DNA of 64,000 nucleotides from Thioalkalivibrio sp. XN8. GTDB lineage: Bacteria; Pseudomonadota; Gammaproteobacteria; Steroidobacterales; XN24. Shown here piece by piece: positions 54,098 through 55,789 of this stretch; within the stretch, counting starts at the first letter, position 1; each line of letters starts with the position of its first letter. Position numbers and translations under genes: made by a program. Where the stretch lies: contig NZ_JAALFH010000052.1 of assembly GCF_011058255.1 (NCBI RefSeq), positions 62,001 through 126,000 on the forward strand, read 5' to 3'. The notes beneath the pieces are model-generated. The model made no database searches. It was not told the origin of the DNA and saw only the letters and a program-made list of their open reading frames with translations.

Positions 54098-54991
54098 ATG
54101 CAATCCAGCAATGACCAGCGCGCCCTGCTCTTCGGCCTCGGCGCCGTGCTGCTCTGGTCCACCGTCGCCACCGCCTTCAAGCTCTCGCTGCAGTACCTGT
54201 CGCCGGTGCAGCTTCTGGCCTGGGCGAGCATGGTGTCGCTGCTCACGCTCGGGGCGCTGCTGCTGGCCGCCGGCCGGTTCGCCGAGGTGCTGCGCGGCAG
54301 CCGCCGCGACTACCTGCGCTCGCTGGCACTCGGCCTGATCAACCCGCTGTGCTACTACCTCGTGCTGTTCGAGGCCTACGACCGCCTGCCGGCACAGGAG
54401 GCGCAGCCGCTGAATTACACCTGGGCATTCACGCTGGCGCTCCTGGCCGTGCCGCTGCTGGGCCACCGCCTGACCCGCGCGGACGTGCTCGGCGGGCTCG
54501 TCGCCTACGCGGGCGTGTGGGTGATCGCCACGCGCGGCAATGTGTTCGGCCTCGAGTTCGCCAACCCGGCCGGGGTCGCGCTGGCGCTGGGCAGCACCGT
54601 GCTGTGGGCGCTGTACTGGGTTTACAGCACGCGCGACCAGCGCGATCCGCTGGTGGCGCTGTTCTGCAACTTCGCCCTCGGGCTGCCGTTCGTGCTGCTG
54701 GTGTGCGCGCTCACCGACGGGCTGGTGCCGGGCGACTGGCGGGGGCTGGCCGGCGCCGCGTGGGTGGGGGTGTTCGAGATGGGGCTCGCCTTCGCCCTGT
54801 GGCTCAGCGCGCTGCGCCTGACCAGCAGCGCCTCGCGCATCGGCAACCTGATCTTCCTCTCGCCCTTCCTGTCGCTGTTCTTCATCCGCACCTTCGTGGG
54901 CGAGGCGATCCTGCCTTCGACCTGGCTGGGGCTCGGCCTGATCGTCGCCGGGCTCGCGGCCCAGCAGTGGCTGCGGCCCCGTGCGCGGTGA
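54098..54991 (+). CDS. EamA/DMT-family transporter
   Basis: The 297-residue protein has ten helices in two EamA repeats. LLFGLGAVLLWSTVATAFKLSLQYLSP opens the first, and GVFEMGLAFALWLSALRLTSSASRIGNLIFLSPFLSLFF marks the second. It lies downstream of a TAGACT box (about 54063). The substrate is unknown. The sequence differs enough from the EamA protein at 52100 that the two are not recent copies. Confidence 0.88.
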   Translation: MQSSNDQRALLFGLGAVLLWSTVATAFKLSLQYLSPVQLLAWASMVSLLTLGALLLAAGRFAEVLRGSRRDYLRSLALGLINPLCYYLVLFEAYDRLPAQEAQPLNYTWAFTLALLAVPLLGHRLTRADVLGGLVAYAGVWVIATRGNVFGLEFANPAGVALALGSTVLWALYWVYSTRDQRDPLVALFCNFALGLPFVLLVCALTDGLVPGDWRGLAGAAWVGVFEMGLAFALWLSALRLTSSASRIGNLIFLSPFLSLFFIRTFVGEAILPSTWLGLGLIVAGLAAQQWLRPRAR

Positions 54992-55027
54992 GGCCCCGGC
55001 CCTGGACGGCCTTTAGGTATATCTACG

Positions 55028-55048
55028 AATGATAATCACTCGCATTCG
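55028..55048 (+). promoter_or_regulatory. Fur-box-like operator
   Basis: GAATGATAATCACTCGCATTC is 21 bases long; its core TGATAAT-n-A matches 11 of 14 fixed positions of the 7-1-7 Fur consensus. AATG and CATT at its ends make it symmetric. It contains GATAAT (55031-55036), a good -10 hexamer, so bound repressor would block this promoter. No obvious -35 hexamer lies at the standard distance. Confidence 0.55.
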
Positions 55049-55189
55049 ATGGGAATTCCTGTTAGGGTTACCGCAGGCCAGCTGGAAACGGGTTCGCCAC
55101 GGTCGCGGCCCGGTTCCGGCGACCCCGAACCCGAAGCCCCCGATGGCAAACGCTTGGAGGTTACAGCGCGGCTGCAACCTCCTTTTTTT
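55043..55189 (+). ncRNA. Candidate Fur-controlled small RNA
   Basis: Transcription from the GATAAT in the Fur-box region would start near 55043 and run into a strong intrinsic terminator at 55156-55189. That gives an RNA of about 147 nt with no convincing reading frame. Fur-repressed sRNAs of this size (RyhB, PrrF, NrrF) are common in Proteobacteria. Sequence similarity to any of them is not claimed. The alternative is that the terminator merely ends the EamA transcript and the promoter serves the cupin gene. Confidence 0.4.
55156..55189 (+). terminator. Intrinsic terminator
   Basis: A 7-bp stem GGAGGTT/AACCTCC and, inside it, CAGC/GCTG around a 3-base loop with a single A-C mismatch are followed by seven T's. 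It is the strongest terminator-like signal in the window and lies between the Fur-box promoter and the cupin gene. Confidence 0.75.
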
Positions 55190-55277
55190 GCCCGATCGCG
55201 CGCTGGGGCCGCCTCTGCAGCACTCCCGCGAAAGGTCTAAGCTCGGGAGACATGCATCCACAACGAGGGAAAGCGGC

Positions 55278-55664
55278 ATGCGAATCTCCAAAGAGGACAT
55301 CCCGATCAAGATCGACGCGCCCGGCGCGGTCGCGCGGCAGCAGCAGGATTTCGGCGACGCCTCGGGCTACGGCGACATCGGCGCCGAGTACTTCACCATG
55401 GATGCCGGGACCGACCTGGCGCCCATGTTCGAGGGGCTCGAGGACGACGCCTGCCAGGCGCCCCACTGGGGCTACCTCATCAAGGGCGAGGTGACGGTGA
55501 GCTATACCGACGGCAGCGAGGAGACGGTGCGCAGCGGTGACCTGTTCTACTGGCCGCCCGGCCACTCGGTGCGCGTCGGGCAGGACGCGGAGATGATCCT
55601 GTTCAGCCCGCAGCACGAGCACACGCCGGTCATGGACCACATTAACCGGAAGTTGCACGGCTAG
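55278..55664 (+). CDS. Small cupin-domain protein
   Basis: The 128-residue protein is a single cupin barrel. APHWGYLIKGEVTVSYTDGSEETVRSGDLFYWPPGHSVRVGQDAEMILFSP covers the two cupin motifs, with the His of HWGYL and the later GDLFYWPPGHSV. The ATG is preceded by GAGGGAAA. Function is not specified for such short cupins. It has no signal peptide. A terminator follows at 55692. Confidence 0.85.
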   Translation: MRISKEDIPIKIDAPGAVARQQQDFGDASGYGDIGAEYFTMDAGTDLAPMFEGLEDDACQAPHWGYLIKGEVTVSYTDGSEETVRSGDLFYWPPGHSVRVGQDAEMILFSPQHEHTPVMDHINRKLHG

Positions 55665-55691
55665 CCGAAGCCGGCGACTGGTCCGGGAGAA

Positions 55692-55716
55692 GCCCCGCTC
55701 CGTGCGGGGCTTTTCT
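55692..55716 (+). terminator. Intrinsic terminator after the cupin gene
   Basis: A 7-bp stem GCCCCGC/GCGGGGC with a 5-base loop is followed by TTTTCTTT. It begins 27 bases after the cupin stop. Confidence 0.8.
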
Positions 55717-55789
55717 TTAGCAGTCCACAACTGACCGAATCGCGTTTATCCTGCATCTCTCGACGACAGAAAGGGCGACGCGGGAGGCC

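Follow-up and report, generated by a model that had tools for sequence, protein, structure and literature searches.

A candidate Fur-repressed transcription unit with its own terminator upstream of a cupin gene in Thioalkalivibrio sp. XN8

Analysis of a 64,000-nucleotide stretch of contig NZ_JAALFH010000052.1 from Thioalkalivibrio sp. XN8 (hereafter the window) revealed a Fur box that is followed on the same strand by an intrinsic terminator. We consider a short, independently terminated, Fur-repressed transcription unit to be the best explanation of this arrangement, with a probability of roughly 0.57, and the product of the unit would probably be a non-coding RNA of ~147 nt. The Fur box, the terminator, the gene-free interval between them and the absence of relatives were established directly from the sequence, and from these we infer transcription, a response to iron, pairing and an involvement of Hfq. 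In the proposed mechanism, Fur would repress the unit in the presence of iron; when iron is short, Fur would leave the box and RNA polymerase would start near 55043. Transcription would then stop at the T-run near 55189, giving the ~147-nt RNA, which would most likely base-pair with mRNAs, perhaps through a C-rich stretch adjoining the terminator, and the U7 tail of the terminator would be of the kind bound by Hfq. Such an RNA, if made, would be at most a fresh, lineage-specific instance of an already known regulator type. The features are listed in Table 1.

Table 1. Features of the candidate unit and its flanks (positions of the window).
Feature	Positions	Strand	Basis or remark
EamA-family transporter gene (eamA), upstream, conserved left flank	54098..54991	+	PF00892
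Fur box AATGATAATCACTCGCATT	55028..55046	+	2 mismatches vs AATGATAATCATTCTCATT
Putative -10, GATAAT	55031..55036	+	inside the Fur box; 5/6 match; no recognisable -35
Predicted Fur-repressed RNA, ~147 nt	55043..55189	+	start deduced from the -10 and 3' end from the T-run
C-rich stretch ACCCGAAGCCCCCGATGGCAAACGCT, putative seed (RNA nt 87-112)	55129..55154	+	suggested by the interaction scan only
Intrinsic terminator	55156..55189	+	stem of two 12-nt arms with a single mismatch, loop of 3 nt, then T7
Candidate -10 (TAAGCT) for a separate promoter of the cupin gene, past the terminator	55238..55243	+	putative, from sequence inspection
Small single-domain cupin gene (128 aa), downstream	55278..55664	+	Cupin_2/Cupin_3 matches

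Fur box, promoter elements and terminator

The Fur box AATGATAATCACTCGCATT agrees with AATGATAATCATTCTCATT, a common form of this motif, at 17 of 19 positions and differs at the other two, and its dyad is widened by the flanking bases to CGAATG...CATTCG (55026-55048). Upon scanning the window with up to three mismatches allowed, we found this site to be the sole match, and 100 shuffles of the window gave none. At the same threshold, the 3.1 Mb genome contained four sites, among which the present one ranked best, and the reversed-pattern control of the scan returned no match in the genome. The Fur-box-like site claimed in the first-pass annotation was thus borne out, with no such match expected by chance. 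Another of the four sites directly precedes bfd-bfr, which encodes the bacterioferritin-associated ferredoxin and bacterioferritin and is a classical, textbook Fur target. The occurrence of the AATGATAATCATTCTCATT-class motif before bfd-bfr as well indicated that this class of motif is in use in the organism. The bfd-bfr Fur box itself, ATTGACAATCATTCGCATT (L149, 1657-1675; G000:C27:163656-163674), recurred unchanged in the congener G001 and almost unchanged in G009, G010 and G012, and the TTGACA that it contains may be a -35.

The same annotation had described a good -10 overlapping the box, and this part of the claim was only partially upheld. In particular, GATAAT lies inside the box and agrees with the -10 consensus at five of six positions, but neither a -35 at a distance of 16-18 nt nor a TG extension (extended -10) was present, and no complete sigma-70 promoter emerged from the promoter scan, which leaves the promoter half documented. 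With respect to what is expected of Fur-regulated trans-acting sRNAs, a predicted Fur box was therefore found at the putative promoter, with the -10 within it and no -35.

The terminator consists of the stem GGAGGTTACAGC-GCG-GCTGCAACCTCC at 55156-55182, followed by T7 at 55183-55189, and its predicted fold has an energy of -16.4 kcal/mol (z -3.1). It was missed by a simple terminator scan because of the single internal mismatch in the stem. Terminators of the same grade were counted in an 862 kb sample out of the 3.1 Mb genome, which also served for the target counts below; 17 were found over the two strands together, corresponding to ~0.01 per strand-kb in this GC-rich genome, so that the probability of a random one lying no more than 250 nt from any particular site is ~0.25%. 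The end of the Fur box and the start of the terminator stem are separated by 110 nt, in agreement with the strong terminator that had been noted about 110 bases further on.

The interval between the two elements had been described as devoid of a credible gene, which was consistent with our results, as its small ORFs gave no Pfam match and read through the terminator. The second expected feature of Fur-regulated sRNAs, a short non-coding unit closed by an intrinsic terminator, was predicted from the sequence, with no protein family assigned to the ORFs. The further statement that the window offers no other explanation for the terminator was too strong, as the terminator may be the leftover of a lost Fur-regulated gene or may insulate the cupin gene from eamA. 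The body of the predicted RNA folded no better than its shuffles (z +0.5). We also observed an open reading frame of 211 codons (55029-55664) that runs from the Fur box across the terminator and into the cupin gene; this frame is probably an effect of high GC content, because the cupin gene has a start and a ribosome-binding site of its own.

Flanking genes and distribution of the unit

The upstream gene eamA is well conserved, with 90-91% protein identity and 86-88% DNA identity to its counterparts in both congeners. Between eamA and the TPR protein gene, which is the next gene that they have in common, the three congeneric genomes each carry different DNA. In G001, an unrelated ORF resembling a secreted protein (judged by eye) stands where the source genome has the cupin gene with its preceding Fur box and terminator, and in G002 the slot is occupied by an NADPH-dependent-reductase-like gene and a short-chain dehydrogenase, both judged by eye from the sequences. 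Genes therefore appear to come and go at this position. The variable slot spans 54992-55720 of the window, 2389-3345 of L148 and 1-1488 of L147.

To describe the distribution of the layout, 246 genomes of the order were searched for a Fur box with a T6 run 112-142 bases further on. This pattern occurred in two of these genomes, and the reversed-pattern controls gave zero matches. The second case, in G197, was attributed to chance, since there the Fur box belongs to feoA and the T-run lies inside a neighbouring hydrolase gene; among the 246 genomes of the order, this spacing of Fur box and T-run is thus genuinely present only in the source genome. BLAST searches with the locus against its own genome, 59 relatives, the family and 369 genomes of the class revealed only short GC-rich matches. 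No relative of the RNA body was found elsewhere in either congener or in the family, no credible relative and none carrying a Fur box was found among the 369 class genomes, and the plasmid and viral collections searched gave no matches to the locus. A separate arrangement was observed in G010 (G010:C10; L156, 2099-2196), where a T7-tailed hairpin lies 73 nt beyond the Fur box AATGCAAATCATTCTCATT, in a region with several Fur boxes. We rejected it as a second example, as the hairpin seems to terminate the neighbouring gene and probably works in both directions, and a short Fur-controlled RNA in this stretch is a possible reading of its sequence.

The unit is absent from the congeners and the ~80 cupin relatives that were checked have no box, from which we conclude that it is not an ancient RNA of the whole genus and that it did not come with the cupin gene as an inherited leader. 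As a tentative, more specific form of the preferred reading, to which we give clearly less than an even chance, the unit may encode a recently gained, species-specific Fur-controlled sRNA that is unrelated to the described iron sRNAs and pairs through its C-rich stretch with the ribosome-binding sites of a novel group of mRNAs. If so, this would be an iron sRNA observed shortly after it arose in a variable gene slot, perhaps from coding remains. Iron-responsive sRNAs across bacteria have a common control logic and unlike sequences, and their origins are largely open; a unit of Fur box and terminator that is found in one species, with other genes in its place in the congeners, would offer a tractable case of how an sRNA appears or disappears.

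An alternative reading, which is one of the two serious rivals although we regard it as unlikely, is that the Fur box drives the cupin gene. In that case, the terminator in the 230-nt leader would act as an attenuator or damper, so that the cupin would be produced at low iron only if polymerase reads through or a regulated switch operates. All of these elements, from the box to the cupin gene, do point in the same direction within 250 nt, and there is no minus-strand gene able to use the Fur box. However, none of the ~80 cupin relatives that were checked had an upstream Fur box or a similar leader, which rules out co-transfer of the leader with the cupin gene and indicates that it is not an inherited cupin leader; relatives of the protein (56-69% identical) were found in many phyla. 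The good ribosome-binding site of the cupin gene and its possible own promoter past the terminator also argue against this reading, as do the facts that no alternative arm capable of opening the terminator was seen and that the riboswitch families gave no matches.

The other serious rival, similarly improbable in our estimation, is that the promoter and the terminator were left behind by a Fur-regulated gene that was deleted or has decayed, in which case a functionless transcript may persist. The differences in the eamA-TPR segment across the three congeneric genomes and the lack of conservation of the RNA body are compatible with such a loss, and a faint reading-frame trace points in the same direction. 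The best class-wide BLAST match covered 42 of 54 bases within a DUF3604 gene (L227), with the reading frame shared and no Fur box at the matching gene. Protein comparison lengthened this match weakly and in a collinear manner over RPL...HS..MG...SGDPE..PDGKR, and, of 2526 genome windows, only 13 reached the DUF3604 profile score of the segment. The trace nevertheless is weak, also in profile tests against shuffles and real windows, with an E-value of ~0.02 once the number of genomes is taken into account, an equally high score in 0.5% of random windows and no Pfam match, and no DUF3604 gene was found beside related cupins or within the 862 kb sample. The Fur box and the terminator are, moreover, both intact, which suggests retention. 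The trace thus weakly keeps alive the notion that the RNA body may consist of coding remains under a Fur promoter; if the unit were merely the remnant of a lost gene, it would matter little.

Comparison with known iron-responsive RNAs and predicted targets

We compared the candidate with the Fur-regulated sRNAs described in other bacteria. PrrF1 and PrrF2 of Pseudomonas (RF00444) have a Fur box right at the promoter, a short RNA, an intrinsic terminator and an intergenic position in common with it; in contrast, the candidate has no sequence or structure match to them, occurs as a single copy and is not predicted to pair with the usual iron-sparing targets. RyhB of Enterobacteria (RF00057) likewise has a Fur-repressed promoter followed by a terminator, whereas the candidate has no Rfam match, its predicted pairing with sodB and sdhC is at background and, at ~147 nt, it is longer than RyhB, which has a length of about 90 nt. 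In Haemophilus influenzae, HrrF was shown to be iron- and Fur-regulated and is conserved across the Pasteurellaceae (PMC4144887), unlike the candidate, which was not found even within its own genus. BrrF of Burkholderia cenocepacia derives from hemP transcription without a Fur box of its own, is conserved in several genera and has sodB, fumA and sdhC among its targets (PMC7377471); it resembles the candidate as a functional analogue of unrelated sequence, and such RNAs arise independently. Together, HrrF and BrrF demonstrate that unrelated sequences can fill the role of a Fur-regulated sRNA (PMC4144887, PMC7377471). The candidate resembles Fur-regulated sRNAs in its predicted control logic and is a homologue of neither RyhB nor PrrF.

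The covariance search for related RNAs that the first-pass annotation had proposed yielded nothing relevant in Rfam. No relevant family was detected in the window at the gathering score, and even with E-values up to 10 there was nothing relevant at the locus, with RyhB (RF00057), NrrF and other iron sRNAs included in the search. The PrrF model (RF00444) had no match in the source genome, and 29 relatives gave only weak matches, all of which were below the cut-off.

Predicted targets were obtained with an accessibility-weighted scan of 609 predicted gene starts, in which the ranks are rough (the quick gene caller misplaced the cupin gene). Predicted pairings with ribosome-binding sites were concentrated on the C-rich stretch, without coherent targets, and the top predicted partners were acyl-carrier-like and metallopeptidase-like proteins (judged by eye) rather than iron genes. 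The start regions of the two sod genes (superoxide dismutases), sdhC, bfd and bfr showed predicted pairing at background; as target prediction from a single genome has low power, these scores do not decide for or against an iron-sparing role. We also found that RNA nt 6-14 (CGAUGGGAA) are perfectly complementary over nine bases to TTCCCATCG in sdhC at +74..+82. This complement was given little weight, because TTCCCATCG occurs five times in the 862 kb sample (both strands) and because its position in sdhC is not where such pairing usually takes place. In the sdhC gene (L223, minus strand), TTCCCATCG covers codons ~25-28 and falls within the SISHR motif of SdhC.

These comparisons bear on the original proposal of a RyhB/PrrF-type iron-sparing RNA, of which the layout stood and the rest found no support, given that no Rfam relation, no PrrF and no pairing above background at sod, sdhC, bfd or bfr were detected and that other genes fill its place in the congeners. 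A true iron-sparing RNA, acting as a repressor of mRNAs such as those of sodB and sdh, is very unlikely: the fitting layout and the nine complementary bases in sdhC speak for it, but the sdhC site lies outside the translation-initiation region, and a core iron-sparing regulator would be expected to have been retained in the genus, from which the candidate is absent. Least credible of all is a coincidence between an AT-rich, Fur-like patch that Fur does not bind and what would be the eamA terminator, for although the -35 is absent, the patch lies directly 3' of the eamA end and no terminator was seen nearer to eamA, a site of this quality is expected zero times in 64 kb and is the best in the genome, and a strong terminator so close by has the low chance frequency given above.

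Two further Fur boxes were also observed. In the source genome, AATAAGAACCATTCTCATT lies upstream of a gene for a porin-like outer-membrane protein, as judged by eye (L150, 1490-1512; G000:C30:60493-60511), and in the congener G002 (G002:C28; L139, 1501-1519) a Fur box is located immediately before a gene that was judged by eye to encode a Fur-family regulator.
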